Source: Pseudanabaena galeata CCNP1313 (GTDB taxonomy: Bacteria; Cyanobacteriota; Cyanobacteriia; Pseudanabaenales; Pseudanabaenaceae). From it: a stretch of DNA of 64,000 nt. The stretch covers positions 1 through 64,000 of the forward strand of contig NZ_CP112879.1 of NCBI RefSeq assembly GCF_029910235.1, in the 5' to 3' direction. The translations under genes were made by a program, and so were the position numbers. Below, piece after piece: positions 1 to 31,023 of this stretch (positions are counted from its first letter, which is position 1; each line of letters begins with the position of its first letter). The notes beneath the pieces are model-generated. The model ran no database searches. It worked only from the letters and a program-made list of their open reading frames with translations, and had not been told where the DNA came from.

Positions 1-3000
1 ATGAAAGGCGAGATATTTGGCGGCAAATATGATATAAAGGCGAAAATTGGTGACGGGGGGAGCAGTATTGTTTATTTGGCTACAAAATTAAACTCTAGCG
101 ATCGCTACGCTATTAAAACTCTTTCGACTGAAGAAGAAAACACTATTAAGCTTCTAGAAAGAGAAACTCAAACATTAAAACGGTTAAATCACCGCAACAT
201 AGTTAAATTTATAGAAGAAGGTTATGAAGATCGTCATAAGCTTGTTTATCTGGTATTAGAGTACTTAGATGGTGAAAAAATAAGAGACTATTTTGATAAT
301 GGGGTTGATTTAAAAACCAAACTAGATGTATTCCTACAGATTATTGATGGTATAGGTCACGCCCATTCTAAAGATATTATTCATAGAGACATCAAACCAG
401 ACAATATTAAAATTGTAGATAGCGAAGAGAAGCCTATAGCAAAAGTTCTAGATTTTGGTATAGCAATTATTACTACAACCATTTTAACTAATACAATCAG
501 AAGTTATCATACCCCTCTATTTTCACCTCCCGAACAAATTAATCTTGAAAGAGTATCTAGAGATTCTGATATCTATTCTTTAGGAATGACTTTTTTATAT
601 TTACTGTCATCGAAAGAAAGTAGAATTGATTTCCAAGAAGAACGAAATAAGAATTTTCTTTACAAATCTACAGAAGATGCATTGGCAAATTATAATGCTG
701 CCTCCGTAATAAATATTCTCAAAAAAGCTACAGATAAAGATAGAGAGAAACGTCCAAAACTTGATGAGATCAGAAAATCGATTTCCAACTTGATGGATGA
801 ATTAGCAGAAAAGATCTCTATCTTATTTTCTATAACTACTCCACTTGAAAATGAAATATCCAATAGGTACGACTTACAACAAAATCCAATAAAAATAAAG
901 AATCATATTGAATCAGAACTAAAAGCTGATGTAGGGAGTTTGTATATTAAAAAGAGTTTCAAACAAGAAAGAGATGATAGATTGGCTGTTGAAATATTTA
1001 TAGAATCTTTGTCAAAATTTTATTATGGATTTATTAATTACAAAACACCTAATGAGATAGTACTGTATAAGACACCCGAATTTAATAACATTAAATCACA
1101 AGATAATATTATTGAAAATGGCTTTTCCATAAAAGTAGATCCCATTGTTCATATTGGTTCTAGTCCTAAAAGAAAAATTGATTTAACTGAATTAGTCGAT
1201 CTAATTTTAAAACAAGATCAGCAAATTCAAAACGAAATTGAAGATAGGAAATCAATAAAACAAACTTTTGAACAATGGCAAGCAGTTATTGAAATGGAAA
1301 AACAAATTCTTATTGATAAGAAGCAAGTTTTTCCGTACAAACATAAATATTACGATAGCAAAAAACAGGCTCTTATTCTAACCTTAGAAGAATCTATATC
1401 TGTTGAAGAGTTTGATCAAATTACATCTCCAGCTTTAGATGTTACTATTTCTATTACTAAATCATCTAAATCTAATCGACAAATAACCATACAGTTTGCA
1501 ATTGGTAAAATTGTCGATGGGAATAGAGCGAATGATAGTGAACTAATTGACAAACTCCATATTAGTATTGGTGATTATTGTGATCTTGATATTTTAGATT
1601 CCATACTTGACAAGGGCAAAATTGAAACTAATCTTAAAGCTCAAGAATCTGAAATAGAGCGTAGGCGAAAAGCTTTAAGAGAAATTCGATATGGTGATTG
1701 TGAAAACACTGAATTATCTAAAGCTATTGTTAATCCAGCTAATGTTTTTCAAATCGAACCAATATTTATTCGCAAATTTTTTAATGAAAAACTTGATGAA
1801 TCACAGAAACTTGCTGTAAGCAAAGCTTTAGCAACCGAAGATATTTTTCTTATTCAAGGACCACCAGGTACTGGCAAAACTTCCGTTATCACTGAAATCA
1901 TTTTACAGATTCTTGATAAATACCCAAATGATAAAATTTTGATCTCATCTCAATCAAATGTAGCTGTAGATAATGTCCTAACTAGATTATCGCGCACTCC
2001 TAGCAAAGAAATTAAATGCGTAAGAATTGGAAGAGAAGAAAAAATTGAAGAGGAAGCTAGACAATTTGAAATAGAAAAAGCTATTTTAAATTGGCAAAAG
2101 TCAATTCAAGCTAAGTCTATAGAGTATTGGGAAAACTATCAGAAACAAAATGAGCAACTTTTGTCGGGTGTAAAGAAAATTTCTAACATAGAGGAAATTA
2201 ATGAACAGAATCAGGAACTCCAAACTCTTTCCAAGAGGTTGACAGAGGTAATTGAAAGATTTAATTCTGAATTAATTATTTGCAAAGACAATTCTGCTTC
2301 TCAGGAGTTTTCTGATATTTCATTAGAAATAATTTATGAAAAGATACTGATAGAGCAAAAAATCTTAGAATCAATTGAAAAATATGTTGTTAAATTTGGA
2401 TTAGAATACCCTGAACAAAAACAACTTAAAACTTGGATTGACGAAGAATATAAAGTAGTCCAAAATATTTTAGGTGACAATCAGGAAAATCATGAGAAAT
2501 ATATTAAGTTGCAAAAATTAAATGAAGACTGGAGTAAAAGACTTAAAAGAAAACAACAGGATCTAATCTCCTTTTTCATAGAAGGCGTAAATGTTGTTGG
2601 AGCTACTTGTCTAGGTGTTGCTAATTTCAAAGATCGTAATTTTGATTGGGTAATTGTTGATGAAGCAGGGCGTTCAACTGCTCCTGAGACTTTCGTTCCT
2701 ATGTCAAAAGGGAAAAAAATAATACTGGTTGGCGATCATAGACAACTACCGCCAATTATCGATCAGGAATTACAAGAAAGAGCTTTAAATGAAAAAGAAA
2801 TTGAAAAAAAGGTTCTTGAAGTTAGTTTATTTGAGTATTTTTATGATGAATTACCCAAAACCAATAAAATTACTCTTAATCATCAATATAGAATGCATCC
2901 CGATATTGGAAACTTAGTTAGTTATTTATTTTATGACGATCAAGTCTCTAGTGAGCGCGTAAATATAGAAGAGAAAAAACATCAATTAAAACAGTTTGAC

Positions 3001-3537
3001 AAAAATGTTTATTGGATATCCACAAGCGACGTATCACTAGAAAAATCTCAGGAAAGAGAAAATGGTAAAAGCCGTAGTAATCCCTATGAAGCAAAAGTTA
3101 TTAAAGCTGTTCTGTTAAAAATTCAACAAGATTGTCAAGATAATAATTTATTCAAAGATGTCGGCGTTATAGCAGCATATCGTTCACAGATTGCTATATT
3201 AGAATCATCTATCGCCTCTAATGACAAAGAAGTTTGGAAGAATCTTCATATCTCTATTCATACAGTTGATGCTTTTCAAGGTGGAGAATGTGATGTCATT
3301 ATTTATGATTTAGTTAGAAATAATCGACAGCAAAAACTTGGATTTACTTCTGATGATAGACGACTAAATGTGGCTTTGTCTCGTACCAGACAGTTACTTA
3401 TCATTGTTGGCAACGATAATATGGCTTATAAGGGGCGAACACCTAATAACATTGCTAATCCTTTTAAACCATTAATAGAATATATCGATGAAAAAAGTGA
3501 TTTCTGCGTTCGGATTAATTCTGGCAAATTTATGTAA
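1..3537 (+). CDS. Ser/Thr protein kinase fused to SF1 (Upf1/Dna2-like) helicase
   Basis: The 1178-aa protein joins two complete catalytic modules. Residues about 10-270 are a Hanks-type kinase: glycine loop at 16-24, ATP lysine K39 in YAIK, catalytic loop HRDIKPDN at 128-135 and DFG at 151-153. Residues about 590-1150 are an SF1B helicase: QGPPGTGKT at 619-627, DEAG at 887-890, GDHRQLPP, QYRMHP, a VDAFQGGE motif V and an ALSRTR motif VI. A long Lys/Glu-rich, probably coiled-coil stretch is inserted between motifs Ia and II. The start codon sits on base 1 of the window, so a longer N-terminus cannot be excluded, although the glycine loop is at a normal distance from it. The PLD-type gene follows 20 bp downstream, suggesting one transcript. 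The DNA is clearly more AT-rich than the 5-15 kb block, consistent with transfer. A phage-defence role is inferred from fold and context. Confidence 0.85.
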   Translation: MKGEIFGGKYDIKAKIGDGGSSIVYLATKLNSSDRYAIKTLSTEEENTIKLLERETQTLKRLNHRNIVKFIEEGYEDRHKLVYLVLEYLDGEKIRDYFDNGVDLKTKLDVFLQIIDGIGHAHSKDIIHRDIKPDNIKIVDSEEKPIAKVLDFGIAIITTTILTNTIRSYHTPLFSPPEQINLERVSRDSDIYSLGMTFLYLLSSKESRIDFQEERNKNFLYKSTEDALANYNAASVINILKKATDKDREKRPKLDEIRKSISNLMDELAEKISILFSITTPLENEISNRYDLQQNPIKIKNHIESELKADVGSLYIKKSFKQERDDRLAVEIFIESLSKFYYGFINYKTPNEIVLYKTPEFNNIKSQDNIIENGFSIKVDPIVHIGSSPKRKIDLTELVDLILKQDQQIQNEIEDRKSIKQTFEQWQAVIEMEKQILIDKKQVFPYKHKYYDSKKQALILTLEESISVEEFDQITSPALDVTISITKSSKSNRQITIQFAIGKIVDGNRANDSELIDKLHISIGDYCDLDILDSILDKGKIETNLKAQESEIERRRKALREIRYGDCENTELSKAIVNPANVFQIEPIFIRKFFNEKLDESQKLAVSKALATEDIFLIQGPPGTGKTSVITEIILQILDKYPNDKILISSQSNVAVDNVLTRLSRTPSKEIKCVRIGREEKIEEEARQFEIEKAILNWQKSIQAKSIEYWENYQKQNEQLLSGVKKISNIEEINEQNQELQTLSKRLTEVIERFNSELIICKDNSASQEFSDISLEIIYEKILIEQKILESIEKYVVKFGLEYPEQKQLKTWIDEEYKVVQNILGDNQENHEKYIKLQKLNEDWSKRLKRKQQDLISFFIEGVNVVGATCLGVANFKDRNFDWVIVDEAGRSTAPETFVPMSKGKKIILVGDHRQLPPIIDQELQERALNEKEIEKKVLEVSLFEYFYDELPKTNKITLNHQYRMHPDIGNLVSYLFYDDQVSSERVNIEEKKHQLKQFDKNVYWISTSDVSLEKSQERENGKSRSNPYEAKVIKAVLLKIQQDCQDNNLFKDVGVIAAYRSQIAILESSIASNDKEVWKNLHISIHTVDAFQGGECDVIIYDLVRNNRQQKLGFTSDDRRLNVALSRTRQLLIIVGNDNMAYKGRTPNNIANPFKPLIEYIDEKSDFCVRINSGKFM

Positions 3538-3557
3538 ATTACAAATGGTTTAATAAA

Positions 3558-5003
3558 ATGAATAATGAAATAAAAAGTTTTGAAAAAGTAAAAGATTTTG
3601 AAAATAAGATTCGTAAATACCATTCATTGCCAGAAGCAGTAGTAATTGACTGTAAGCTAATTGGGTATCCCTTCCACATTTTAAATATTGATTTAACCTA
3701 TTTGGCAAACAGACAACTACAACTAGTTGAAGAATTTGTCATGAAGTGTATTAATTATGATTTAAATATACAAGCTGAAATAGCTGCTTTCTTGGGTATG
3801 GATGAAAGCTTAATAGAAAAAGTTTTGTCAGAATTATTATCTAAAGGTTTAATTCAAAGAGAAAACACTTTAAAGTTGACTGAACTAGGTTCTGTTTCTT
3901 TAGAAAAGCAAACTGTATTAGCTCCTCTATCGGAAACAAAGATTTTTTACATTGATGCTTTAAGTGGAAAGCTGAGTGACAAATTTTCATTAAATTTATA
4001 TGAGAAGAATAATAATGATAATTTTCTTTTAAATAAAATTATCAAAAGACCAAGGAAGAATAACATTGAAGACGTGGTTGACTATTATGAGCATATTGAA
4101 AAGTCATTGCAAAATTATAATAATTCTAATCAAATTGAACTAATTCAAGTTAATAATATTGAGAAAGTATATACAGAGTATCATGAGCTTTCATTGGTTC
4201 TATATCAAAGAAATCCTGATGATCAAGAAATTGAATATGAAATTTTTTCCAGAGGGAACATTCAAGTTGATTATAGAACGACTATAGAACAACTTTATGC
4301 AGAAGGAAAAAAAATACTTGACCCAATTTTTCAAGAAATTAAAGACGATAAATTAATAGATTTTAATGATGAAAATAATCTTTCGGCATCTATTAACTAT
4401 GAAGATGTAAAAGCTGTTGAAAAGCTTACTCTAAAAATTAACTCTTTTAATGATCCTGATCTTTTAATTGAAACTAAAGATAAAGTAATTAAAGAAGAGC
4501 GCCAAAAGTTAAAACATGAGCTTGAGCAAATTCAGACAAAAAGCAAGATATCCGAAATTATTCATACTTATGAGCATCGTGACTATTTATTTAAAGCTTT
4601 AAAAGAAGCGAAAAATAGAGTAATGATTGTTTCTCCGTGGATTAAGGGGTTTGCTGTAGATAAAAATTTTCTTGAACAATTAGAAGAGACTTTAAAGAGG
4701 AATATCCAAGTTTATATTTACTATGGAATTAAGGGTTCCAATCAGCAAAATGATCGTAGATCGATTGAAAATTTAGAAGAACTATCTGAACGTCATAAGT
4801 ATTTTCAATTTAAAAAAGCAAAGAATACACATCGTAAAATTTTAGTTTGCGACAGTAGATTCGGTATCGTCACCAGCTTCAATTTCTTATCATTTAGAGC
4901 AGATCCTAATTTAACTTATAGAGATGAATTAGGTGTTATTATCAGAGACAAATCAACTATTGAAGATTTATTTCAAAGTGGTAAATCTTTATGCGATAGC
5001 TAA
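3558..5003 (+). CDS. PLD-family nuclease-like protein with N-terminal winged-helix-like region
   Basis: The C-terminal third (about residues 330-481) resembles the phospholipase D superfamily: a strand reading VMIVSPW, then an HxK motif (H425, K427 in THRKILVCD) followed by a TSFNF strand. Only one HKD motif is visible, so a homodimeric active site like bacterial PLD nucleases would be expected. Residues about 45-105 look like a winged helix (SELLSKGLIQRENTLKLTELG). The middle is charged and unrecognised. ATG 3558 follows the kinase-helicase stop by 20 bp, which supports a two-gene system in which a kinase-regulated helicase feeds a nuclease; that mechanism is inference. It could also act on lipids, but the helicase partner makes nucleic acid the likelier substrate. 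Confidence 0.72.
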   Translation: MNNEIKSFEKVKDFENKIRKYHSLPEAVVIDCKLIGYPFHILNIDLTYLANRQLQLVEEFVMKCINYDLNIQAEIAAFLGMDESLIEKVLSELLSKGLIQRENTLKLTELGSVSLEKQTVLAPLSETKIFYIDALSGKLSDKFSLNLYEKNNNDNFLLNKIIKRPRKNNIEDVVDYYEHIEKSLQNYNNSNQIELIQVNNIEKVYTEYHELSLVLYQRNPDDQEIEYEIFSRGNIQVDYRTTIEQLYAEGKKILDPIFQEIKDDKLIDFNDENNLSASINYEDVKAVEKLTLKINSFNDPDLLIETKDKVIKEERQKLKHELEQIQTKSKISEIIHTYEHRDYLFKALKEAKNRVMIVSPWIKGFAVDKNFLEQLEETLKRNIQVYIYYGIKGSNQQNDRRSIENLEELSERHKYFQFKKAKNTHRKILVCDSRFGIVTSFNFLSFRADPNLTYRDELGVIIRDKSTIEDLFQSGKSLCDS

Positions 5004-5055: not shown

Positions 5056-8000
5056 TTAGAATAGCTTCAACTGTTCTCTCTCCTCATTTACATTCTTCTG
5101 CGGAATCACAAGTCGCTTACCTCCTCCTTCTAAAAGCATGAATTCAGACAATGGCTTGAATACTTGCGGTTGCAGAAACTGCAAAATTCTCTCGCCATTC
5201 ACAGGAATTTCAATCTCAACAGAGCTAACAATCTGCGCGATTTGTTCAAGCCAGTTATCAGCGTCACCTGACACCCAATCCTCAAACCGTCTCTGCCTCA
5301 ATGCTTCCACGATCGCTGTTGATGGTGGCTCCAACTTGGCGACTACAGAATCACGTTGCCAAAATATCTCTCTTGAGTCAGTCAATTCATCATCATCAAG
5401 ATTAGGATCTTGATCGTCATTATCCACGGGTGCTTCGTTAGCAATTGTGTCAAACAGTTGCTTGAGAAACTCTAACCGATTTGCTTTTTCGTGGTATGTC
5501 TGAAGTTGATCGAACGGCTGACTGACGCGCTTTTGCAAGATTGGTAGCTCTTGCCGATCGCGTTCGAGAGTTTCCTGTGCTGTAGTCAATTTGGCAGCGA
5601 TTGCATTCCTCACCACATGCAAAAGAGAACTATGTGGATTGTGGCAATCAACATTAAATTCATAGCCTGAACTAATGCTCATACCAATCGAGCCATTGAC
5701 CTCAGAGCCAAATCTGCTCAGATACACATTCAGTCCTGCAAATTGTCCGATTTGGATTTGAGTTAACCGATAGCTATCTCTCAACTTTTGGAATTGTTCA
5801 GAAATATGATCGTCTATCAGCACAGCTTTATCCAACATCACACCGCGATCGCTGATGAATTGCTTCAGGTTGGCTTTGGCGACAGTGGCTAGGTCTGTTT
5901 GAATATGCTGAATGTTGGCAGGATGGTTGGTATTTACCATGTCAGCTAGATACTGAATCTTGGATTTATCCCTAAACTGCGTATCGTTATAGGCTTGCAA
6001 TTGCATTCCTAGTCCTTGTAATTCGGCTTCGAGGGTAGCCCGTTCCATGATCAGCGGATCGCCCGATGCGATCGCTTTCATCTGGGCTGCATTAAGAACT
6101 GTCTCATCAATGTCTTCGATGGTACGATGGGTGCGATCGCCCGACATCACCTGCGAAATCATGCGTTGTTTGTTTTCAATCGCTTGCCAGAGGAACGAAT
6201 CAAATCCCGCTTGGTTATTCCTACCTTCGGTGACATAGCGGAAAATGAAGACATCGCTCCATTTATTACCCTGCCTGACTCCTCTACCTTCCCTTTGTTC
6301 GAGGTCTGATGGTCGCCAAGGACAATCAATGTGGTGCAAGGCAATCAGCTTGGTTTGCATATTCACACCTGTCCCAAGTTTGGAAGTGGAGCCGAAGACA
6401 ATCCTGATTCTGCCTTCATTGATCGCTTCAAACAGCTTGACTTTCTTAGCATCGGTATCATAGTCATGGATAAAAGCAATCTGGTCAGCAGGTATACCCA
6501 ACATCAGCAAAGTATCGCGGATATAGCTGTAGCTATTCCACTTGTCTTTCTTAGGCGCATTGCGATCGCAAAAGATTGCTTGGGTTCCTTTGCAAATCGC
6601 CGTAATTGTCCAGATTTGCCAGACATTCCACGCACAGGCTAAGAGTTTGTTGTCTAGCCATTCTGAGGCATTTGGTGATACCAGTTTCGTGTGCATTGAT
6701 GACTTGGAGCCGTCGCCTGTGATTTTGAGCATGTTGTCAACTTCAGCTCTGACTTTGCGTTTTTCTACAGCCTCTGCGCGATCGCAGAGTTTATCCATAT
6801 AAGCAATTTGCTCTTGAGATGGCTTGCAAGACATCACATGGTAATGCGGTGCCGGTGTTTTAACTTCGGCAAGCGCGGCGGTCTGAATGTCGGTTACTTG
6901 ACACCACATCGCCATCAGTTCGGGCAGGTTTACAAATTCTCGCAGACGAGTTTTCGATTTCAGCCTGCCTGTGGGACTAATTTCTAGGGCGGTGCTGGTT
7001 TCACAGAAGCGCGAGCAGAAACTATCAAAGTGGGTTAGCCCCTGTTCTTCGAGTAGGTCAAGTTGCAGGTAGCGCATCCACACATCCATTTCCGCCATAG
7101 TGTTACTGAGTGGTGTTCCTGTTGAGTAGATCACCCTCTTACCATTACCAAGCAGGTATCGTACTTTCATGAAGCAGTCATGGGCGCGTTGGCTATATCC
7201 AGAGGGAATGCCAGAGACGTTATGCTGAGTAGTCAGGATTTGCAGTCGTTTGATTTGCTGTACCTCGTCAATGAACAGTGCATCTATACCCAGTTGCTCA
7301 AAATAAATCACGCGGTCTTTGCGATGGCTGTTTTCAATTTCTTGAATCCGCAAGCCAATCTTCTTACGAGTTGCTTCTAAACTGCGAAATGCTTGCTTTG
7401 ATTCTTCTTTGGTGGTTAAGTCAAAAATAGAAGAGATCGCCGACATTTGTTCTTCCAGAAAAACCAATTCAGTTTCCTCGCTGATGGGCAAGTTAAAGAA
7501 CTGTTCGTAGGTTAATAGAATTGCATCATGGTTATGAGTAGCAATCTTGCTCAATAGAACGCGACGGCTATCTTTAGCAAATTCTTTGACTGTGGGAACG
7601 AGAATGTTAGCTTCGGGATACAACCGCCGAAATTCTTTGTAGTAATCAGGCAAGATCGATTTCATGGTCACATGCATAACTTTGTGAGCCATGCCTTTGC
7701 GTTTGAGTTCCATGCCTGATGCAATCATTGTCGCGGTTTTGCCATAGCCCACCCGATGGGCGGCAAAAGAGGCTTTCTGTCGTTCGACGCGGCGCACAAA
7801 GTTAGCTTGATGACGACGCATCTGAAAATCTGGAGTCATACCTGGAAAGGTCAGGTGTGAACCGTCATAAACAGTATCGCGGTAGAGGTTGTGATATTGG
7901 TTATAGTGCAGACATAACCTTTCAGCGCGATCGCCATCACTCCAGATCCATGCTTTGAAAGCAGTTTGAATCTTATCCCTCATCGTGCGCGACTCCGATG

Positions 8001-9318
8001 TTGCTTCGTGGTTGAGAGTGGCGATGGTGTTGCCATCTTTGTCTTTGTAGTAATCGTAGACTTTGGGATCTTTTTGGTTGAGGGTGTGGTCAATCAGGGC
8101 GATCGCTGTAAAATTTCGGGTTCCCCACTCGGTTTTGTTCTGTGGTGAAACAATTAATTTGCTGTTACCTGTGATTACCCAAATGTTGGCGGGGTCAGGA
8201 TGAAACTTGACTGTGCTTTTTCCTGCATGGCTGAGCAGTTGTTCGGTAAACTCCTTGATTACGGTTTCGGGTAGCCAACTTGTTCCTAGCTTCAGGCGAA
8301 TGGTGTTGCGTAGCAGCAGATTTAGCTCGTCTGGGGACATGGAATTGATATTAAGTCCCAATTTCACGGCGCAGCGCACTTTGATATCCACATCTTCAGC
8401 TTCGGGTAAGCAGGGGACTGGCTGGTTATTTCTGATGACTTGGTGGTAAATCTCTACGTTTAGCCAGTCGGGAACTCCCATTTGCTGCCATGCGATTACT
8501 CTTTTTAAACGTGCGACCACATTGCCACTGATAAATTCTTCGCGAGTAATCCAATCTTCTTTGGAAGCTGCTTGTAAGTCTTCTAGTGGTGTGGTTCCGT
8601 TGTAGAACACTGCCCCTTCTAGTTCGATGACAACAGTGCTGATACTTTTGTCGAGCAGATTTCCAATCCAGTCAAGGTCAATAAAGCTCCGCGCATCTAG
8701 ACATTGAGCAAGGGCATCTTTGGCATTACTAGCGCGATATCTTGGTGTGGCTCTGACTGTGCGTTGATCGAATATCGGCGCTTTAGTGGGACTTTTGCCT
8801 TTGCCTTGGTCAATTTCTAATGCTCTTAAGCGGTAGTAATTGGGGTCTTCTTTGAAGATTTCAAGGTTGACTTTGGCAGTAAAGTTGCCAAACCTAATTA
8901 CGAACGCATCGTATTTTTGATTGAGAACTTGACGCAGTTTCGCTAGTTCTCGGTCATCGTCATACTGTTGCATCTTCAGCACTAAGTCCAAAATCTTGAC
9001 AACAGACATAGCGGCACGAATGCGATGGGGCTGGTTTTCGATTAATTCCAGTTGGCTGTCGGCGCGGCGGTAGATCTGGCTTCCATATTCACAAAATGCA
9101 TTGGGTAAGACATGTTGTAGTTGGGGCGGAATCTGAATTACCTGTGTTTGTACTGGTGCTGGTTGGTAAAATTTGCTGATCGCTTTACCAATCTTGCTAA
9201 TCTCTTTGCGTAGGTCAAAGTTAGCTGGGGCGGTTACGCCTAGATGCTCTCCACCATATAGTTTGGCGACGCTAAGTTCACCGAGAATATTGCGAAACTT
9301 GAACGTTTTTGGACTCAT
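5056..9318 (-). CDS. Large SNF2-like DEAD/DEAH helicase of plasmid/phage type
   Basis: The 1420-aa protein has a helicase core from about residue 500 to 1080: Walker A VGYGKTA at about 523-529, motif II DEVQ at 684-687, motif III STGTPLSNT at 732-740, and motifs V-VI in a GTGVNMQT...QREGRGVRQGN block. These match the SNF2-like translocases of large phage and plasmid helicase-methyltransferase proteins. The first 500 residues and the Glu/Asp-rich tail carry no motif I recognise. The N6-type methyltransferase gene lies directly upstream on the same strand, with a terminator-like hairpin in the gap. Such methylase and helicase parts are often one polypeptide, so this looks like a split version. 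ATG 9318 is a clear start. Role inferred: remodelling or protecting plasmid DNA together with the methylase. Confidence 0.85.
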   Translation of the reverse strand: MSPKTFKFRNILGELSVAKLYGGEHLGVTAPANFDLRKEISKIGKAISKFYQPAPVQTQVIQIPPQLQHVLPNAFCEYGSQIYRRADSQLELIENQPHRIRAAMSVVKILDLVLKMQQYDDDRELAKLRQVLNQKYDAFVIRFGNFTAKVNLEIFKEDPNYYRLRALEIDQGKGKSPTKAPIFDQRTVRATPRYRASNAKDALAQCLDARSFIDLDWIGNLLDKSISTVVIELEGAVFYNGTTPLEDLQAASKEDWITREEFISGNVVARLKRVIAWQQMGVPDWLNVEIYHQVIRNNQPVPCLPEAEDVDIKVRCAVKLGLNINSMSPDELNLLLRNTIRLKLGTSWLPETVIKEFTEQLLSHAGKSTVKFHPDPANIWVITGNSKLIVSPQNKTEWGTRNFTAIALIDHTLNQKDPKVYDYYKDKDGNTIATLNHEATSESRTMRDKIQTAFKAWIWSDGDRAERLCLHYNQYHNLYRDTVYDGSHLTFPGMTPDFQMRRHQANFVRRVERQKASFAAHRVGYGKTATMIASGMELKRKGMAHKVMHVTMKSILPDYYKEFRRLYPEANILVPTVKEFAKDSRRVLLSKIATHNHDAILLTYEQFFNLPISEETELVFLEEQMSAISSIFDLTTKEESKQAFRSLEATRKKIGLRIQEIENSHRKDRVIYFEQLGIDALFIDEVQQIKRLQILTTQHNVSGIPSGYSQRAHDCFMKVRYLLGNGKRVIYSTGTPLSNTMAEMDVWMRYLQLDLLEEQGLTHFDSFCSRFCETSTALEISPTGRLKSKTRLREFVNLPELMAMWCQVTDIQTAALAEVKTPAPHYHVMSCKPSQEQIAYMDKLCDRAEAVEKRKVRAEVDNMLKITGDGSKSSMHTKLVSPNASEWLDNKLLACAWNVWQIWTITAICKGTQAIFCDRNAPKKDKWNSYSYIRDTLLMLGIPADQIAFIHDYDTDAKKVKLFEAINEGRIRIVFGSTSKLGTGVNMQTKLIALHHIDCPWRPSDLEQREGRGVRQGNKWSDVFIFRYVTEGRNNQAGFDSFLWQAIENKQRMISQVMSGDRTHRTIEDIDETVLNAAQMKAIASGDPLIMERATLEAELQGLGMQLQAYNDTQFRDKSKIQYLADMVNTNHPANIQHIQTDLATVAKANLKQFISDRGVMLDKAVLIDDHISEQFQKLRDSYRLTQIQIGQFAGLNVYLSRFGSEVNGSIGMSISSGYEFNVDCHNPHSSLLHVVRNAIAAKLTTAQETLERDRQELPILQKRVSQPFDQLQTYHEKANRLEFLKQLFDTIANEAPVDNDDQDPNLDDDELTDSREIFWQRDSVVAKLEPPSTAIVEALRQRRFEDWVSGDADNWLEQIAQIVSSVEIEIPVNGERILQFLQPQVFKPLSEFMLLEGGGKRLVIPQKNVNEEREQLKLF

Positions 9319-9331
9319 GACTTTTCCTCAA

Positions 9332-9372
9332 TAAAAAAAGCGCCCCTTCCCTTGATTGGGTTGAGGCGCTTG
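9332..9372 (-). terminator. Rho-independent terminator after the methyltransferase gene
   Basis: Read on the minus strand, a GC-rich stem (aagcgcc / ggcgctt) with a roughly 20-nt loop is followed by a run of T. It lies downstream of the 9407-10459 gene and just before the SNF2 helicase start, so it could attenuate transcription between the two. Confidence 0.65.
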
Positions 9373-9406
9373 TTGTTTGTGTGGTAATTTTTCTGTCGAA
9401 TCGCCG

Positions 9407-10459
9407 CTAGGCTACTTCTGGTTCAAGGAACCATTGATTAATCATGATTGGCTCTTGGTTAACGGTATGTTTACCCGATGGTGCTGTCCTCACCCAACTA
9501 GGATATTCATAATCCTTTGCAGTTGTTAATTTTCGTTCCGCTTCCGTTAATTTACGGAAAAGCAGAATATCGGCTACAACCGCCGTATTGGAGAACCGTT
9601 TAAAGGCGATATCGGGCAACCGTATTGCGGTGACTAATTCTAACTTTTCGGCTAGATGTCTCCTAAAACCTGTACCTAACGAGTCAAGGGTAAAGCAACT
9701 GGAAATTAAACACAGCAAGCCATTCTCGCGTACTAAATCGGTACATTTAGCGAAAAAATAGTTATGCACGCTCAAATTTAGGTGGGCATATCGGGAATCA
9801 AACAGCTTGTAGTTGCCAAAGGGAACATTGCCGATCGCTAGGTCAAAGCTGCTATCTGATAGGCTAACTTTCTCGAAACCTTGAGCATAAATTTGGGCTT
9901 CGGGGTAAAGCAGTCTCGCGATTTGGGCAAAGGTGGGATCTAGCTCTACACCTACCCATTTCGATCTAATTCTCATATTTTGAGGCTGGCAACCCATAAA
10001 GGATAAGGTGTTGCAAGCAGGTTCAAGGATCGATCCACCTGTAAATCCGATCGCGGCGAGTAAGTCCCACATGGCGCGGATGACTTCAAAACTAGTTTGG
10101 TAGGCGGTAGCAGTGGCTGATTTGGCGGCTTGGATTTCGGCGGTGGTGAGCAGTTGGCAAAGTCTTTCATAGCATCGGTACTGCCATGTGTTCCCCTGAT
10201 GGTTCGCTCCCACCCAGATATCGGTGAGGGTTCCCCATCCCGATGCTTTGGCTAGTTCTATTTGCTGGTCAGGTTCGCCAATTTGGATGGATTTCGATAG
10301 AGCGATCGCCTCTACTGTTGCTTCGGCTTTTATGCGTAAAGAACAATCAAAATGCTCTTCAATTTCTTGGGTAATTTCAAACATAGGATTTTGTGCTTTT
10401 GGCAAACTTTCAGTTGTTATGCGTTTGTTCTTGAGAACAGGCGCTAGCCAAAAATACAT
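9407..10459 (-). CDS. N6-type DNA methyltransferase (class I SAM fold)
   Basis: The roughly 350-aa protein has a Rossmann methylase core: a SAM-binding region around GGSILEPACN, an acidic strand WVGVELDP, and the catalytic loop GNVPFG, an NPPY-type (amino-methyltransferase) motif IV. This is the arrangement seen in the methylase half of large plasmid and phage methylase-helicase proteins, and the SNF2 helicase gene follows on the same strand. I set the start at ATG 10459 rather than the in-frame TTG six bases upstream; ATG 10384 (MFEITQEI) is also credible because no good ribosome binding site precedes either. Adenine methylation is inferred from the motif order; the target site is unknown. 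Confidence 0.75.
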   Translation of the reverse strand: MYFWLAPVLKNKRITTESLPKAQNPMFEITQEIEEHFDCSLRIKAEATVEAIALSKSIQIGEPDQQIELAKASGWGTLTDIWVGANHQGNTWQYRCYERLCQLLTTAEIQAAKSATATAYQTSFEVIRAMWDLLAAIGFTGGSILEPACNTLSFMGCQPQNMRIRSKWVGVELDPTFAQIARLLYPEAQIYAQGFEKVSLSDSSFDLAIGNVPFGNYKLFDSRYAHLNLSVHNYFFAKCTDLVRENGLLCLISSCFTLDSLGTGFRRHLAEKLELVTAIRLPDIAFKRFSNTAVVADILLFRKLTEAERKLTTAKDYEYPSWVRTAPSGKHTVNQEPIMINQWFLEPEVA

Positions 10460-10532
10460 TAACAATTCAGTTTTGTTCTAACAGATGGTAAACTGACATC
10501 ATAAAATCGTTGCTAACCGCCAAGTGGATTTT

Positions 10533-13984: not shown

Positions 13985-14476
13985 TTAGGCGGCGATTTTA
14001 TTCATTTCTGGACGATATATCACCAATCCCTTTGCCAACAGAGCATCGATCGTGGTTGGTCTGGTTGGCAGAAAGTTGATCTTGTCGTCTTTGGTTGCCA
14101 AAATCTTGCAGCCGTAATACTTTTCTAAACGCTCTGTGACCTTGCTAATATGCATCGTGCCGATATTTGTCAACGTCCAGCCATTCTTCGCTTGATACAG
14201 CCACATTTTGTCTGTACTGGCAGGTGGTTTACTGATTTCTGGTTTACGGGCTGGTGATGCGCTGACCTCTGGTTTATGGGTTTGTGGTTTACGGCTAGTT
14301 GATTCAGCCTTGGTATTGCTGGCTGCTACTGCTTGTTCGAGCTGTTTGACTGGGATTTTGGAATTGATGTGAACAATCAAAGCTCTGGTGGTTACGTTTA
14401 GTTCGTCTTGGCTCAATTTGGCAATCATTTTAGTTGCCAATTCTGCGGGGGTATCGAATCTTAGTTGACGTGACAT
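13985..14476 (-). CDS. Hypothetical protein with Pro/Lys/Ser-rich linker
   Basis: The 163-aa protein is not recognised. Residues about 1-55 (starting MSRQLRFDTPAELATKM) and 95-163 look folded. They are joined by a low-complexity linker rich in Lys, Pro, Ser and Thr with repeated KPE and KPQ units. It is collinear with the 787-aa RNAP-like gene downstream (80-bp gap containing a perfect hairpin) and with the membrane-anchored 137-aa gene upstream, so it may belong to the same plasmid gene set. ATG 14476 is the only sensible start. Confidence 0.55.
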   Translation of the reverse strand: MSRQLRFDTPAELATKMIAKLSQDELNVTTRALIVHINSKIPVKQLEQAVAASNTKAESTSRKPQTHKPEVSASPARKPEISKPPASTDKMWLYQAKNGWTLTNIGTMHISKVTERLEKYYGCKILATKDDKINFLPTRPTTIDALLAKGLVIYRPEMNKIAA

Positions 14477-14554
14477 GATTTTAGGTTCCTGACTTTAAGT
14501 TGTTGTTGACAATTGCTCACGGACTTTACGCGCTAGCGTTCTTCTTGCTTCTCA

Positions 14555-14605
14555 AGCTTGTCAATACAGATGTCATTCTTTGATGAACATCTACATTGAC
14601 AAGCT
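14555..14605. other. Imperfect 19-bp inverted repeat in the intergenic gap
   Basis: The arms begin agcttgtcaat and end attgacaagct, with two mismatches and a 13-nt loop. They lie just after the stop of the 137-aa gene (minus strand). No U-tract follows; possible terminator or operator. Confidence 0.4.
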
Positions 14606-14615
14606 CACTTTCGAC

Positions 14616-15029
14616 CTACACATTCAAGTGATATATCAACTCCTTCTTTTTCAATGTTCTCCAATTGGGGATTTTGCGCTCTCTTGCTAAAGGTCTTAGT
14701 TCTTGAACAGTCATTTTCGAGATTGGCTTAGTAGCTGTTTCTGCAATGATTTCAGGCTGTTCATCCTGTTCTAATACTTCTAGTTTTGGTGCGGCTTTGG
14801 CTGAGGATAGAGCTAATGTTGTAGCTGGCAGCAATGTTTCTGTAACCGTAAAAGTCTTTGCTGTGGTTACATCGGTTGGAATTTGAGAAAGAAGGGACTG
14901 AGTGGTGGCTTCAGCGCTTAGAAATGATAGTAGGGCATAGATTAGTGCGGTCAATAATCCCAGTAATGCGATCAGACTCACTGTCACTAGAGCCTCGATA
15001 GCGATCGCGAAAATTGATGGTGTTTTCAT
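14616..15029 (-). CDS. Small membrane-anchored protein with SAP/Rho-N-like C-terminus
   Basis: The 137-aa protein has one hydrophobic helix at about residues 10-40 (a Leu/Ala/Ile stretch), an Ala/Thr-rich spacer, and a final segment (about 105-137, MTVQELRPLARERKIPNW...KKKELIYHL). That segment resembles the SAP/HeH/Rho N-terminal helix-extension-helix fold, which usually contacts nucleic acid. A membrane anchor joined to a DNA-binding tip would tether DNA to the membrane; this is inference. It lies between two small unrecognised genes on the same strand, upstream of the RNAP-like gene. Confidence 0.6.
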   Translation of the reverse strand: MKTPSIFAIAIEALVTVSLIALLGLLTALIYALLSFLSAEATTQSLLSQIPTDVTTAKTFTVTETLLPATTLALSSAKAAPKLEVLEQDEQPEIIAETATKPISKMTVQELRPLARERKIPNWRTLKKKELIYHLNV

Positions 15030-15133
15030 TGGTTTTCCTGATAGGTGTTAATTTTCTTCAATGCTTGTTGTGGAATCGATCTAGCAATCTTTGCTCATCC
15101 AATCGAATTGAAAGGCGATCGCTAGACTGATTT

Positions 15134-15586
15134 TTAGTTCAATGCTCTTGCTGCGTTTTTTTTAGAAAAGATTTGGGGAAAGCTGTCATGCAGACTTTCC
15201 AGATGGTTCTCTGCTACTCGGCGGCAATGTCCTTGATCTGTGGTATACGAATTCGTCGCGGCTTTGGCAAAGTATTCGGCGCTGGTCAACAATTCCATTA
15301 CTCCCGATCCAATCTGGGAGAGTTGGTCAGGATATTTGGTGAGATATTCCCCTAGTTCTTGGACGCTTTCTCTTACGGATTCCAACAACAAATTTTGACA
15401 TTGGATCGTCCGCTTTGTGCCATCGGAGAATGTCAAGATTTTCGTGCCATCAATCAAATCGGATATGCTTGCATTCATCGATTTAGCTAGGGCAATCAAC
15501 TGTTTTGTGGTCTTCAAGCATCGTGCTTTCGATCTGAATATCTGTGCTTTTGTATTGCCTGTCAGTGAATTTATGGCTACTTGCAT
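15134..15586 (-). CDS. Hypothetical protein (150 aa)
   Basis: Not recognised. It is soluble, mostly helical by composition, and has no metal-binding Cys/His clusters. It includes an LTFSDGTKRTIQC segment that could be a small beta unit. It lies at the 5-prime end of a minus-strand series (150, 137, 163 and 787 aa genes) and just beside a relic of the RNAP-like gene. ATG 15586 was chosen because no earlier in-frame start is close. Confidence 0.45.
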   Translation of the reverse strand: MQVAINSLTGNTKAQIFRSKARCLKTTKQLIALAKSMNASISDLIDGTKILTFSDGTKRTIQCQNLLLESVRESVQELGEYLTKYPDQLSQIGSGVMELLTSAEYFAKAATNSYTTDQGHCRRVAENHLESLHDSFPQIFSKKNAARALN

Positions 15587-15675
15587 CGGGTTGCTTTTCC
15601 TAGTTTGTCAATCGGTCACTGACTTCCAGCGTAAGCGCTCTTTCTATTTTTGAATAAGTTATCTGGAAAATATTT

Positions 15676-15750
15676 CTCTTTGATAAAGAGTCTCGATTGG
15701 TTTAACAAATAGTTCACGGAATTCGAGCAGGTTGCGCTCATATACACTCA
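15676..15750 (-). pseudogene. Fragment of a third RNAP-like gene
   Basis: Read on the minus strand, about 65 bp encode ERNLLEFRELFVKPIETLYQ. This matches HERTLLEFRELFVKPGEILYK in the intact 787-aa protein (DNA about 12076-12150) at both the nucleotide and the peptide level. No open frame surrounds it, so it is a remnant of a lost paralogue or of a rearrangement. Confidence 0.7.
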
Positions 15751-15860
15751 TATACCTGACCTTTAGTAGTAATCGTATAGAGATCTGCAATAATCGCACA
15801 TAAACTCAATAAAACAGCTAAAATTGAGAAATATAGACTTTAAAAATGAGGCGTTGATAC

Positions 15861-18800
15861 TTGAGTACGTCTGAGGAGTTAGAAAAAATAACAGATACAA
15901 GCAGTTTTGAGCTTCTTGCAACAGCAGTCTTGTGCAAAGCAGAAAAAGACTACCGAGCTATCTTGCATTCTGGCTTAAATGCTCAAGGACAGCCGAGAAA
16001 ATCTCCTGTTGATGGTTTTTGCCGAGTTCATAACAGTAATCCCCCTCATTTTATTCTGGTAGAACACACTGTAGAAAGCAAACTATCAAAGAAATGGCTA
16101 TTTGACCATAGAACTGTTACACCTTCTAAAAGAGGTAGAAAAATGAAGCTTTCAGAAAGTGATGACGGTGATCTTCTAAAGGCTGGACAACTTTCTAGTA
16201 CATACAAAGCTGAATTTCCAGATGCAAGATTTACTGTTGTTTTGACCACTAATCAAGGATTACAACCAGATTTCTGTTTAGAAGTCGAGAAAAAAGCTAA
16301 AGAATTAGGAGTATCAGTCGATTTTTGGGATAGGTCGCGTATTGCTAGATTTTTAGATACAGAAACTGAAGGACAATGGTTGCGTAAAGAGTATCTAGGG
16401 ATAGAAGCTGAGATACTCTCAGAAAATTTACTACGCAATTTGTGTAACAAGAGTTTAGAGCAATATCAAAAGCAGTTTTTGACAAGTCCCGATCGCTGGG
16501 TTTCTCGACACATCGATCAACAAGTTGAGAAAGCAGTAGAAAATCAAAATTGCTCAATAAGTCTTCTGATTGGAAATTCTGGTTCTGGAAAGAGTGCAGC
16601 AGCTTATCAAGTTGGGAAAAAGCACCTAGAAGCGGGAGAGTATAGTTTGTGGCTATCTGAAAATGTTTTAGGAAGTAGTGATTCACTCGAAAATGCTTTA
16701 GATAAGGCATTGCATGATTTATATCCGAGTTTGATGTCAGATGCAGGAAATGCAGCTTTGAAATTATTGAAGGATGGAAAAAGGTTATTGCTAATCGCTG
16801 ATGATGTCAATCGAACCAATAGTCCAGCAAATCTGTTGCAAAAGCTTATCAACTGGTCAAAACCTTCTCCTAGCCAAGATTCTAATACCAAAACCATACC
16901 ATCAAAACAGCTACTAATTTGTCCAGTTTGGTCGGATATTGTCGGAAAGATTAATCTAAATGTAGATAAAACCACTTGGATAAGTAGTGTGTTTGTTGGA
17001 ACTATGAGTGCTGAGGAGGGATTAGAAGCAGTTAAAGATGCTTTATTACGAAATCGTATTGAATTGACCAATGCAGAGATCACTATATTGGCGGAAAATC
17101 TCGGCAACGATCCAATTCTAATAGGTCTTTTTGATGATTTGTTACCCAAGATTGAACATAGTAAGTTGAGTCAAGTTGCTGAGAATGCCATTGATTCTTT
17201 CATTAGTAATGTTGTCGAGAATGTGGTGGGCAATTTGTTTCCCAACGAGTATCGTTCAGCACTGTTAGGCTTAACTACTCAAATGCTAATACAGCGTAGG
17301 TTTAACCCAACATGGTCTGATATAAAAAATTGGTTAGCCAACTCTTCCGAAGAACTACAAGCATTAAGAAGGTTAGCAGAGAATAAAAAGTTATGCAAAC
17401 TTGAAGGAGAGAAGTTAGTTTTTCGGCACGATCGCATTCGAGAATTTCTACTCGTAGGAAGCATGGGACAACTTCTCAACGAAAATGCTTCTGAACCTCT
17501 CAACATTTTCTGGGAACCATATTATGCGGAGATTATCGGTCAGGCAATTATTCAGTATCCTCAAAGTGAGGAGTTTTTACAGGAATTGTGCGATCAACTT
17601 CCCTTAGCGTTAGTAGAAGCACTCAAGTATCCCAACACTACAGAGAATTACTTGAAAATTGTTGAAAAAGTTAAAAATTGGCTCTGTAAAAACACGGAAA
17701 ATAGTGATATTCCAGAACTATTACTTGATGCAGTATATTCAAGTTTAATGAAGGTAAATTCACCCTTAATACTTGAAATAACAGAGAATTTAGCTCCTAA
17801 TGCTCCTATCTTACTTGCACGGTTACGAAACGGCTGCACTAGGAGTGGTATTCGATATCTTGCTCATTGTAATAGGTTTATCATTTTTGCTCCTATGGAC
17901 AATGACAGTAGATATAATGAAGTATTAAGTCATGTAAGTTTCTATTACAAAATCAAACTTTTATCTGATCTTAAACAAGCACTCAACTCTTACAATGTTA
18001 TAGATTCATATAGAGATGGCGCTCTTACCCTTGCTGGTTTTTTAGAATACTCAGAGCTAGAAAATGATTTAATAGCTTGTTGGCAATTATCTAAAGATAA
18101 ATCTTTCACTTTAGGTTCTGCTATCTGGGCAGCTTCTCGATGTTGTAAAGATGAATCGTTAGATAAATTAGAATCATTATTAGTTTATTGGTCTAATTTA
18201 AACAATAGTCCTGAGAATAATAATCAGCATAGTCACAACTGGTTTTCTAGTGATCATAATTATAGAACTCGATTATCTCATCAATTTGGTTCTCACTTTA
18301 TTCAACACTTTATTTCTCAAGCTAAAAAACATGAATCACTAGGGTTAATATTTGCAAACACATTAAATTGTGTTGATAATACTAATATAGATAATGCAGA
18401 TATAATTGAACATATCATAAGAGAAATATCGAATTTTAAACAAAACGATGAAAAAAGTAAAAATCTAAAATCTTTGGTAACACTACTCTCAAGAGTATTT
18501 ATGGCAGTTCGCTTAAAGAAACACAAACTCTCTAAGTCTTCAATGGATCGATTGAAATGTTTATGGCAGAATACAGACAACAATGACGAAGTAAGGGAGA
18601 AATCATCTCAACTATGGGTTGAAGGTGCTAATTATGAGCAGATTGATGATTTAAAGAAAATAACAGATGATTTTCCTTTCTTTTATGAAGCACTACAAAA
18701 ACGTATACAATTAGGTGATTATAGCGTTATAAAAGATGCATACTCACTTTTTTCAACTAATGCCCGTTGGCTGCATCTATCTCATCATATTTGGTGTAAT

Positions 18801-19595
18801 GATTTAATGGCTATAGTTGAAAAACATCTTCAAGTCCTCAAAAATATTATTCCAAAAGATTTTTCAGGTAGTCGAGATGATAGAGAAGGAATACTTTCAG
18901 AATTGCTTACTTTAGTGCCAATAAATGATGCGGAATTGATTTTAGAAAGGCATTGGAGCTATATTGGATACAGTCCAAGATTTATTCAAGCTGCTATATA
19001 TATAGGTACACCTAAATGTTTGGCTTTAGCTGATTCGAGAATTAGACAATGTTCAAATCATACTTTAATCTTTAAATATTTAGTCTCAAGTTTTTATATA
19101 GACGGACGACAGCATCTCAGATTAAATCATCTAGAAAGATTGATACCATATCTTGATTGTTTAGAAGAGTCAGAATTATGGCTGCTAGAAACTATCTGTC
19201 AAAAGTTTAAAGCTTTTGAGTGGGGAAAACAACATCTTAAAAACCGACATAGCAAAAAGGTCTTGGAGGAATACTATCCATCTGACAATCAGCTACTACA
19301 AGAACTTGATGATTTATCAAATCATGAACATGGGATACTTGATGTTCTGTCATGGACGAAAAAACTTGAGCAACGTCATACCACACATCAAGAGGCTTTA
19401 ACCTTGTTAGAATCTTGGCTTGCCTCTAATCCAATAATGAGGAATTATCGTATTGTCTGCGAATACCTTAAGCTTATTGGTTCTCGCCAAAATCTATCTC
19501 TTTTGGAAAAATACAAAATTGTAGGTTCACCTACTGAAGTCAATCAAATAAAAATGGATACTCAATTTGCTGTTTACAGACGAACCTTAGAATAG
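15861..19595 (+). CDS. STAND-type NTPase with N-terminal nuclease-like domain (Avs-like architecture)
   Basis: The 1244-aa protein has three parts. Residues about 15-175 resemble a restriction-endonuclase-like fold (VDGF then FILVEHTVESK), but the usual ExK lysine is not evident. A P-loop NTPase follows, with IGNSGSGKS at 237-245 and Walker B LLIADDVNR at about 310-318. The last 700 residues are helical, repeat-like and AT-rich, as in sensor domains of AVAST/STAND defence proteins. The start is TTG 15861, about 8 bp after a GAGG box; no ATG occurs before residue 95. A second protein of the same layout is at 54721. A nucleotide-triggered abortive defence role is inferred. Confidence 0.65.
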   Translation: MSTSEELEKITDTSSFELLATAVLCKAEKDYRAILHSGLNAQGQPRKSPVDGFCRVHNSNPPHFILVEHTVESKLSKKWLFDHRTVTPSKRGRKMKLSESDDGDLLKAGQLSSTYKAEFPDARFTVVLTTNQGLQPDFCLEVEKKAKELGVSVDFWDRSRIARFLDTETEGQWLRKEYLGIEAEILSENLLRNLCNKSLEQYQKQFLTSPDRWVSRHIDQQVEKAVENQNCSISLLIGNSGSGKSAAAYQVGKKHLEAGEYSLWLSENVLGSSDSLENALDKALHDLYPSLMSDAGNAALKLLKDGKRLLLIADDVNRTNSPANLLQKLINWSKPSPSQDSNTKTIPSKQLLICPVWSDIVGKINLNVDKTTWISSVFVGTMSAEEGLEAVKDALLRNRIELTNAEITILAENLGNDPILIGLFDDLLPKIEHSKLSQVAENAIDSFISNVVENVVGNLFPNEYRSALLGLTTQMLIQRRFNPTWSDIKNWLANSSEELQALRRLAENKKLCKLEGEKLVFRHDRIREFLLVGSMGQLLNENASEPLNIFWEPYYAEIIGQAIIQYPQSEEFLQELCDQLPLALVEALKYPNTTENYLKIVEKVKNWLCKNTENSDIPELLLDAVYSSLMKVNSPLILEITENLAPNAPILLARLRNGCTRSGIRYLAHCNRFIIFAPMDNDSRYNEVLSHVSFYYKIKLLSDLKQALNSYNVIDSYRDGALTLAGFLEYSELENDLIACWQLSKDKSFTLGSAIWAASRCCKDESLDKLESLLVYWSNLNNSPENNNQHSHNWFSSDHNYRTRLSHQFGSHFIQHFISQAKKHESLGLIFANTLNCVDNTNIDNADIIEHIIREISNFKQNDEKSKNLKSLVTLLSRVFMAVRLKKHKLSKSSMDRLKCLWQNTDNNDEVREKSSQLWVEGANYEQIDDLKKITDDFPFFYEALQKRIQLGDYSVIKDAYSLFSTNARWLHLSHHIWCNDLMAIVEKHLQVLKNIIPKDFSGSRDDREGILSELLTLVPINDAELILERHWSYIGYSPRFIQAAIYIGTPKCLALADSRIRQCSNHTLIFKYLVSSFYIDGRQHLRLNHLERLIPYLDCLEESELWLLETICQKFKAFEWGKQHLKNRHSKKVLEEYYPSDNQLLQELDDLSNHEHGILDVLSWTKKLEQRHTTHQEALTLLESWLASNPIMRNYRIVCEYLKLIGSRQNLSLLEKYKIVGSPTEVNQIKMDTQFAVYRRTLE

Positions 19596-30648: not shown

Positions 30649-31023
30649 TTAGTTATCTTGAAACTTGATTCTTGATTCAAGTTTCAATAAGCTTGAACGT
30701 AGGTCTTCCTCAGTCTGGATTTCCTCCCAGTCGATCGGCATTGCTCGAAATAATTCGAGCGCAGCTTGAACCCATACTTCCTTAGCAATCTTCTGCCCGT
30801 GCTTTCGTTTACCTTGTTTCAGCAAATTATCAAGCCAGTCATTTAATTCGAGTGACAGTCTAAGATTAATTTTTTCTTTTTCACCATCAATCAAGAATGA
30901 TGATTCTTGATTGATGGTTATTGATTCTTGATTCTTGATTAAAGATTCTTCTTCAGGTTCGGTCTTACTAAAGATACCTTGCGCTAGTGGATTGTTGCCT
31001 AATGCCGATCTCTTTACTGCCAT
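30649..31023 (-). CDS. Small ParB-like centromere-binding protein
   Basis: The 124-aa protein follows ParA with a 10-bp overlap, the usual place for a type Ib partition partner. Residues about 45-110 (INLRLSLELNDWLDNLLKQ...) resemble a ribbon-helix-helix or small DNA-binding helix bundle. Residues about 20-45 (SLIKNQESITINQESSF) are encoded by the same TCAAGAATC-type palindromes that fill the surrounding DNA, so a repeat has expanded inside the gene. It probably binds these palindromes and represses parAB. Confidence 0.65.
   Translation of the reverse strand: MAVKRSALGNNPLAQGIFSKTEPEEESLIKNQESITINQESSFLIDGEKEKINLRLSLELNDWLDNLLKQGKRKHGQKIAKEVWVQAALELFRAMPIDWEEIQTEEDLRSSLLKLESRIKFQDN

Follow-up and report, generated by a model that had tools for sequence, protein, structure and literature searches.

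Passages in PMC11672841 describe Mokosh type I as combining a COG1112 RNA helicase, a separate PLD nuclease gene and an additional Ser/Thr kinase domain, and type II as one fused gene. Mokosh is said in part of PMC11291487 to degrade foreign viral transcripts and is likened there to the piRNA pathway; a brief statement in PMC12926258 gives its mechanism as unknown. Here we analysed the first 64 kb (positions 1 to 64,000 of the forward strand, hereafter the window) of contig C6 (NZ_CP112879.1) of Pseudanabaena galeata CCNP1313, which opens with two adjacent genes. Judging from their sequences, these genes are almost certainly a Mokosh type I anti-phage system, consisting of mkoA and mkoB. The best explanation as a whole, to which we assign a probability of roughly 75%, is that of a Mokosh I pair in which the helicase senses, the kinase acts as a switch and MkoB cleaves.

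A first-pass annotation of this DNA did not give the name Mokosh. It had read the genes as an intact Hanks kinase and an intact SF1B helicase in one chain, next to a single-HKD PLD protein with a winged helix, and had proposed that they form a compact defence system. The domain reading held: the kinase domain, both helicase regions and their catalytic motifs lie within the MkoA chain, and MkoB carries a PLDc_2 domain with one HKD motif, together with winged-helix matches that fall under the cut-offs (Table 1). The defence claim is supported, since each gene has a match to the profiles of an anti-phage system that is already known. The MkoA profile scored 718.6 bits along its whole length at the window, compared with 121.1 bits, on the kinase part alone, for the next best match in the genome. 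By itself this profile is unspecific: kinase and helicase domains are common singly, and through them 13 of the 14 control genomes give at least one match at E ≤ 0.001 and the window's own genome gives 41. The window MkoA is still distinctive, because the length and score of its match exceed those of all others in the genome.

All catalytic residues of the MkoA kinase are present (K39, E55, HRD at 128-130, N135 and DFG at 151-153), and this domain also matches the PADLOC kinase profiles PD-T4-6 (3.7e-45, residues 3-263) and mad6 (9e-47). The solved helicase sequences nearest to MkoA are IGHMBP2 and UPF1, followed by DNA2 and SEN1; nothing scored like MkoA among the best 60 of the 2840 solved sequences matched by its profile, the top one being IGHMBP2 with 235 bits. 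Our AlphaFold2 model of MkoA was built with three sequences and failed (mean predicted local distance difference test score, pLDDT, 36), so a reading of residues 389-563 as the stalk and 1B barrel of UPF1 and IGHMBP2 is only tentative. Block pLDDT was 44-74 at residues 431-560 and 31-49 at 391-430, and the remainder was poor. The best matches of this model in the PDB were SETX, IGHMBP2, SEN1 and UPF1, with target template-modelling (TM) scores of 0.12-0.17, which added little to the sequence. Matches to ribosomal proteins (TM 0.41-0.50) were discarded, their E values being above 0.03.

In MkoB, the HKD motif is intact (H425-x-K427-x4-D432), and the winged-helix matches below curated cut-offs are PF24409 (8.1e-4, residues 61-117) and MarR (0.0068, residues 72-102). 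In the MkoB model, the PLD part reached block pLDDT of 59-92 across residues 341-440. Its best matches were the single-HKD nucleases NucT and Nuc, both of which work as dimers, with Zucchini/PLD6 further down. The model was poor at residues 104-309, and matches to TrmBL2 were discarded (root-mean-square deviation 12-25). We saw no solved Mokosh structure among the solved sequences matched by the MkoA (best 60 of 2840) or MkoB profiles.

Table 1. Features of the mkoA-mkoB pair, with positions in the window.
Feature	Position	Strand	Evidence
mkoA, Ser/Thr kinase - SF1 (UPF1/IGHMBP2-like, COG1112-type) helicase fusion, 1178 aa	1..3537	+	PADLOC PDLC03920 MkoA 4.7e-216, residues 5-1169
Hanks-type Ser/Thr kinase domain, residues 10-259	28..777	+	Pfam PF00069 (Pkinase) 2.6e-39
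Kinase catalytic loop HRDIKPDN, residues 128-135	382..405	+	H128, R129, D130, N135 kept in 21/21
Predicted helix - beta-barrel - helix, residues 389-563, tentative	1165..1689	+	AlphaFold2 model; position of UPF1/IGHMBP2 stalk and 1B barrel
Helicase RecA1 region (AAA_11), residues 597-920	1789..2760	+	Pfam PF13086 3e-57
Walker A GPPGTGKT, residues 620-627	1858..1881	+	Motif reading in alignment
Walker B DE, residues 887-888	2659..2664	+	Motif reading in alignment
Helicase RecA2 region (AAA_12), residues 939-1139	2815..3417	+	Pfam PF13087 9.9e-50
mkoB, winged-helix / PLD-type nuclease protein, 481 aa	3558..5003	+	PADLOC PDLC03922 MkoB 2.2e-66, residues 30-412
Winged-helix segment, residues 58-118	3729..3911	+	Weak Pfam matches under cut-off; aligned across relatives
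PLD domain, residues 345-470	4590..4967	+	Pfam PF13091 (PLDc_2) 1.1e-9; model resembles NucT 6ehi, Nuc 1byr
Single HKD motif HRKILVCD, residues 425-432	4830..4853	+	Motif reading in alignment

Both open reading frames (ORFs) start with ATG and are open and complete, with an intergenic gap of 20 bp. The pair is AT-rich, as had been noted at first pass: its GC content is 0.299, as against 0.410 for the remaining window DNA and 0.427 for the remaining contig DNA. Contig C6 (145,310 bp, one of six contigs of a 5.84-Mb genome) is probably a plasmid, because it encodes a ParA-like protein (31014-31775 of the window) and, close to its other end, a single-strand-binding-like protein, both named from reading the translations. 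The pair is carried as an AT-rich cassette on this cyanobacterial plasmid-like contig. The mkoA ATG sits at base 1 of the contig, and the promoter would therefore lie at the opposite contig end if the contig is circular, in which case an in-frame TAA is the third codon 5' of the ATG. A promoter scan at that end gave two candidates against a shuffle mean of 2.8, no excess over chance, and both were on the other strand.

We then considered how the pair is distributed, using MkoB and the linker-helicase part of MkoA as queries against 386 cyanobacterial genomes. MkoB matched at E ≤ 1e-10 in 15 genomes, seven of which have an adjoining kinase-helicase MkoA (G000, G127, G087, G093, G030, G213 and G185; the last has a second locus, L031, with another PLD protein). 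Two have a long helicase lacking a recognised kinase domain (G019 and G056), two a fused MkoC-like protein (G305 and G231; profile scan on G305 only), and one locus is truncated by the contig end (G328). Another two (G203, whose protein has pentapeptide repeats, and G039, outside the profile scans) encode other PLD proteins, and the stretches read there gave no MkoA match. The remaining genome, G382, has a lone 420-aa MkoB-like gene near ORFs read as transposases. Locus L069 (8016-11041), where an MkoB-like gene without mkoA adjoins transposase-like ORFs, looks like a decayed Mokosh. The linker-helicase query matched in 48 genomes at E ≤ 1e-30 and exceeded 200 bits in only eight; the other 40 are weaker helicase matches. 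In all eight, an MkoB-like gene adjoins on the same strand, with its PLD part replaced in one (G149). The two genes thus do not co-occur rarely and, at 8/386 genomes, the fusion is not a conserved housekeeping gene, either of which would have spoken against the earlier proposal. Neither query matched in the three other genomes of the same genus in this sample. The pair is accessory and patchily distributed.

Beyond the cyanobacterial genomes, every PLSDB record with an MkoA match at E ≤ 1e-60 (8/8) has an MkoB-like gene alongside; six of these records are typed conjugative and two mobilizable, in a collection made up of plasmids only. We found the pair on plasmids of Nostoc, Anabaena, Oscillatoria, Allocoleopsis, Tolypothrix, Agrobacterium, Sinorhizobium, Microvirga, Arthrobacter and Mycobacterium, a survey that shows range and not rate because most of the plasmids were reached through an MkoB match. 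PLSDB matches H5-H7 and H12-H18 lie outside the loci compared. An MkoB-like gene adjoins in 14/14 kinase-helicase loci from genome contigs, PLSDB and IMG/VR (L014, L077-L085, L087 and L103-L105), most of them again reached through MkoB. Further copies of the pair lie in a Microcoleus metagenome-assembled genome (77% and 71% identity) and on a contig that is viral or from an integrated element (L087). No MkoB match was found among 50,697 phage records. Scanning viral contigs with the MkoA profile returned at least 15 loci (L088-L102), mostly short generic helicase matches, which were not used. Across 16 loci the mkoA-mkoB gap ranges from -17 to +28 bp, the -17 depending on a mechanical choice of start. 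The six closest relatives likewise have a pair richer in AT than the flanking DNA (0.276-0.322 vs 0.355-0.447 GC), but L080 and L085 do not. Distance matrices computed for the helicase part of MkoA and for the N-terminal part of MkoB correlate at 0.98 (0/2000 permutations as high), which indicates joint inheritance at most, and not contact, because two sequence clusters drive the correlation.

To assess conservation, we counted 21 loci with a kinase-bearing MkoA. Excluded were L068 (PLD absent; including it, the HKD count is 17/22), L076 (truncated by the end of its contig), L069 (which has an MkoB-like gene but no MkoA), L070-L073 and L086 (fused, or with no recognised kinase), L074, L075 and L031 (other PLD proteins) and L015 (kinase match only). 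The kinase residues K39, E55, HRD, N135 and D151 are kept in 21/21 MkoAs, as are the Walker A lysine and the DE of Walker B, and the HKD motif is intact in 17/21 MkoB partners. The mycobacterial MkoB (L085) has an additional S1 RNA-binding domain (1.2e-17).

On this basis we propose a mechanism whose steps, in the order given, we regard as having an even chance of being right. The UPF1/IGHMBP2-like helicase of MkoA would survey nucleic acid, the likeliest kinds being RNA and single strands that infection exposes, and its engagement would turn on the fused kinase. The kinase would then phosphorylate MkoA, MkoB or both. The single-HKD PLD domain of MkoB would presumably complete its active site by joining that of another copy, in the manner of Nuc and NucT, and MkoB would cut nucleic acid, stopping the phage or the infected cell. 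The sequences themselves show which family the genes belong to, that their catalytic motifs are intact, that the two genes go together and that their distribution is patchy; the substrate, the order of events, the phosphorylation target and the outcome for the cell are the parts that we infer. This model is favoured because the helicases nearest to MkoA act on RNA or single-stranded DNA and because the MkoB PLD domain resembles NucT and Nuc. Control of the helicase-nuclease by phosphorylation, which had also been suggested at first pass, is plausible; in its favour are the kinase residues kept in 21/21 MkoAs and a PP2C phosphatase gene added in one branch.

Several observations weigh against this reading. 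The identification as Mokosh comes solely from PADLOC profiles; an excerpt of PMC11811056 reports that PADLOC calls of Mokosh in the Bacillus cereus group were mostly type II and that DefenseFinder missed all but one of those. Phospholipases and FAM83 proteins are also among the fold matches of the MkoB PLD part, and a search of solved-structure sequences with the MkoB profile gave no PLD match. The target may be other than RNA, as the close helicases include DNA2, which works on DNA. The HKD motif is missing in four rhizobial MkoBs, all from Hyphomicrobiales (L083, L103, L104 and L105), and a cyanobacterial MkoB (L068, 1497-2807) is without a PLD domain. Finally, four relatives combine helicase and PLD without a recognised kinase domain (L070, L071, L072 and L086). 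Helicase and nuclease can therefore exist without the kinase, which counts against phosphorylation control as a general rule.

These variants are themselves informative. No PLD family was detected at E ≤ 0.01 in the three HKD-less rhizobial MkoBs that were scanned, and the four kinases of this group have in common a change of K132 to N and a DYG in place of DFG. A PP2C phosphatase gene overlaps the end of mkoB in all four loci (L083 8409-9191, L103 6445-7263, L104 6532-7341 and L105 6475-7260), and in L103 and L105 it is followed by DUF3800. DGxGG and GEDN, which we take to be PP2C motifs, are readable in all four translations. Gene listings place PP2C beside two further copies (H29 and H31, from Sinorhizobium and Agrobacterium), and none was found for H33-H35 among the matches listed (15 of 183). 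Because loss of the HKD accompanies gain of a phosphatase, these loci suggest that phosphorylation is a real signal. In L068, the PDC-S68 profile matches, through its C-terminal part (2.1e-45), the C-terminal domain of MkoB, and the TPD family does so weakly and under cut-off. The domain's pattern S-x-S-E ... PDF ... E-H presumably corresponds to a PD-(D/E)XK nuclease motif, and the PLD domain has probably been replaced by a domain of that kind. As this locus swaps the nuclease and keeps kinase and helicase, it suggests that most members have cleavage as their output. Neither the rhizobial phosphatase variant nor the swapped nuclease was found in the literature searched, a collection that lacks most subscription papers and preprints. 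Among the relatives without a recognised kinase domain, L070 (5642-11690) and L071 (5376-10256) encode helicases of 1483 and 1626 aa followed by an MkoB-like gene (for L071, seen in genome G056), and a kinase-like ORF lies apart from the helicase in L070, on the opposite strand at a distance of 3.6 kb. L086 (1647-6783), on a 114-kb viral contig, encodes an MkoA-like helicase followed by a 635-aa PLD protein.

The sequence alone does not tell whether phosphorylation activates MkoB or restrains it. In a rival reading, phosphorylation would keep MkoA or MkoB off until infection relieved it, or until a phosphatase fired the system; in its favour, a PP2C gene overlaps mkoB in 4/4 rhizobial loci, and reversal of phosphorylation probably does matter there. 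We consider such restraint rather unlikely. Relatives without a recognised kinase domain would be always active, yet they exist; no phosphatase is annotated directly beside the pair on eight other plasmids (in PLSDB gene tables that are incomplete, and with one about 5 kb downstream in L080); and next to the window pair lies an SNF2-like helicase gene on the other strand. A tentative extension, which we think possible but doubtful, would make Mokosh I a reversible phosphorylation switch on a helicase sensor, with the kinase as its core, the nuclease as a plug-in that is swapped in L068 or dropped in rhizobia, and PP2C resetting or triggering the switch. The rhizobial operon of mkoA, HKD-less mkoB and PP2C, with DUF3800 in 2/4, would then be an undescribed subtype.

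The intactness of the kinase in 21/21 loci, against loss of the HKD in 4/21 and replacement of the PLD domain in L068, would also fit a kinase that is itself the toxic effector, a role that has been proposed for stand-alone defence kinases, with MkoB mainly a winged-helix adaptor or a second effector; the matches of the kinase domain to PD-T4-6 and mad6 point the same way. This seems improbable to us, given that 17/21 MkoBs keep the HKD, that L068 appears to have exchanged it for a different nuclease domain, a sign of selection for cleavage, and that the relatives without a recognised kinase retain helicase and PLD. We give very little credence to a role outside defence, whether in maintaining the plasmid or in surveying RNA for the host replicon. 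Plasmid genes flank the pair in the window, and the eight PLSDB records with an MkoA match are all conjugative or mobilizable in that plasmid-only collection, but the pair matches known anti-phage profiles and is patchily distributed, with CBASS-like genes nearby in Nostoc and BrxL, PglZ and type IIG restriction matches near other copies. Sensing by the helicase, switching by the kinase and cleavage by MkoB remain our preferred reading.

We also compared the surroundings of related loci with control DNA. The flanks of seven related loci (52 ORFs) matched 55 PADLOC families at 1e-15, of which the 25 listed include BrxL, PglZ, type IIG restriction-modification and DruE. Nine control stretches (69 ORFs; L106 and L110 were short, and L109, of 579 bp, was dropped) matched 104 families, of which the 25 listed are type I restriction-modification, mostly specificity profiles, and mad matches. 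The flanks therefore showed more kinds of system among the listed families and fewer families overall, the control itself having met a type I restriction-modification cluster and mad genes, and we make no claim of enrichment. In a Nostoc plasmid (pNPM2, L077), CBASS-like genes for a DncV-like nucleotidyltransferase, an E2/UBC protein and a Mov34/MPN protein lie shortly downstream of Mokosh (14250-17548).

The window itself holds further candidates. On the opposite strand beside the pair, 5056-10465 encodes the 1420-aa SNF2-like helicase and a 352-aa Eco57I-type methylase-like protein. Positions 31915-53237 hold a BREX-like, phosphorothioation-linked cluster with a cysteine desulfurase, BrxL (3.4e-123), PglZ (1.1e-24; under the BREX-4 cut-off, 20.1 vs 140), a PAPS-reductase/DndC-like protein, a dnd-related methyltransferase (TIGR04096, 838.5 bits vs a cut-off of 150) and two proteins of very large size (1803 and 1200 aa) that match no NCBIfam family. 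Two more genes are possibly Avs-like defence genes: one of 1244 aa (15861-19595), with weak STAND/NACHT NTPase matches below cut-off, and one of 1250 aa (54721-58473), which has the look of a STAND ATPase by eye and no Pfam support.

The window pair is one more Mokosh I, and its main use is to represent the system in cyanobacteria. Through its relatives, the role of the Mokosh I kinase becomes testable: the natural series, with no kinase domain, with the nuclease swapped, and with the HKD lost and a phosphatase gained, offers ready-made comparisons. Among the papers that use the word Mokosh (40 listed of 41, some on other subjects), none has a title that points to a mechanistic study of the system.

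Other known systems share parts of this architecture. The IGHMBP2, UPF1, SEN1 and DNA2 helicases are the closest solved helicases among the best 60 of 2840, but to our knowledge they carry no fused kinase, and MkoA misses the cut-off of the IGHMBP2 family TIGR00376 (265.7 vs 348.9 bits). MADS MAD6 matches in the kinase region only (NF047741, 142.8 vs a cut-off of 460 bits), and the stand-alone kinase PD-T4-6 does not fit, as its match is limited to residues 3-263 whereas that of MkoA is full-length. DISARM DrmC has a PLD-like domain in common with MkoB and stays under its cut-off (NF038319, 31.4 vs 133), in a window not systematically searched for DISARM partner genes. According to sections of PMC11090510, CoCoNuT type III-C likewise joins a UPF1-like CnuH helicase to a wHTH-PLD nuclease partner, and types II and III-A also carry a TerY-P kinase and PP2C. 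The kinase is separate there and fused to the helicase here; the defining McrB-type GTPase was not part of our search. Mokosh type II (mkoC) has the same helicase and PLD domains, and the MkoC profile matches both proteins more weakly (3e-30 and 2.5e-20), but type II is one fused protein and the window has two ORFs; the single MkoC homologue scanned (L072) is without a recognised kinase domain. Mokosh type I agrees in its kinase-helicase MkoA and separate PLD MkoB, neighbouring and co-directional, with catalytic residues present, a full-length MkoA match and a strong MkoB match. It differs in that MkoB here has 481 aa, and the best MkoB profile, of 610 positions, is covered at 3-382. We count the window copy as a member because it has the type I features tested, defence-gene neighbourhood apart; with no qualitative difference found, it is a well-preserved, ordinary member of an already described system.

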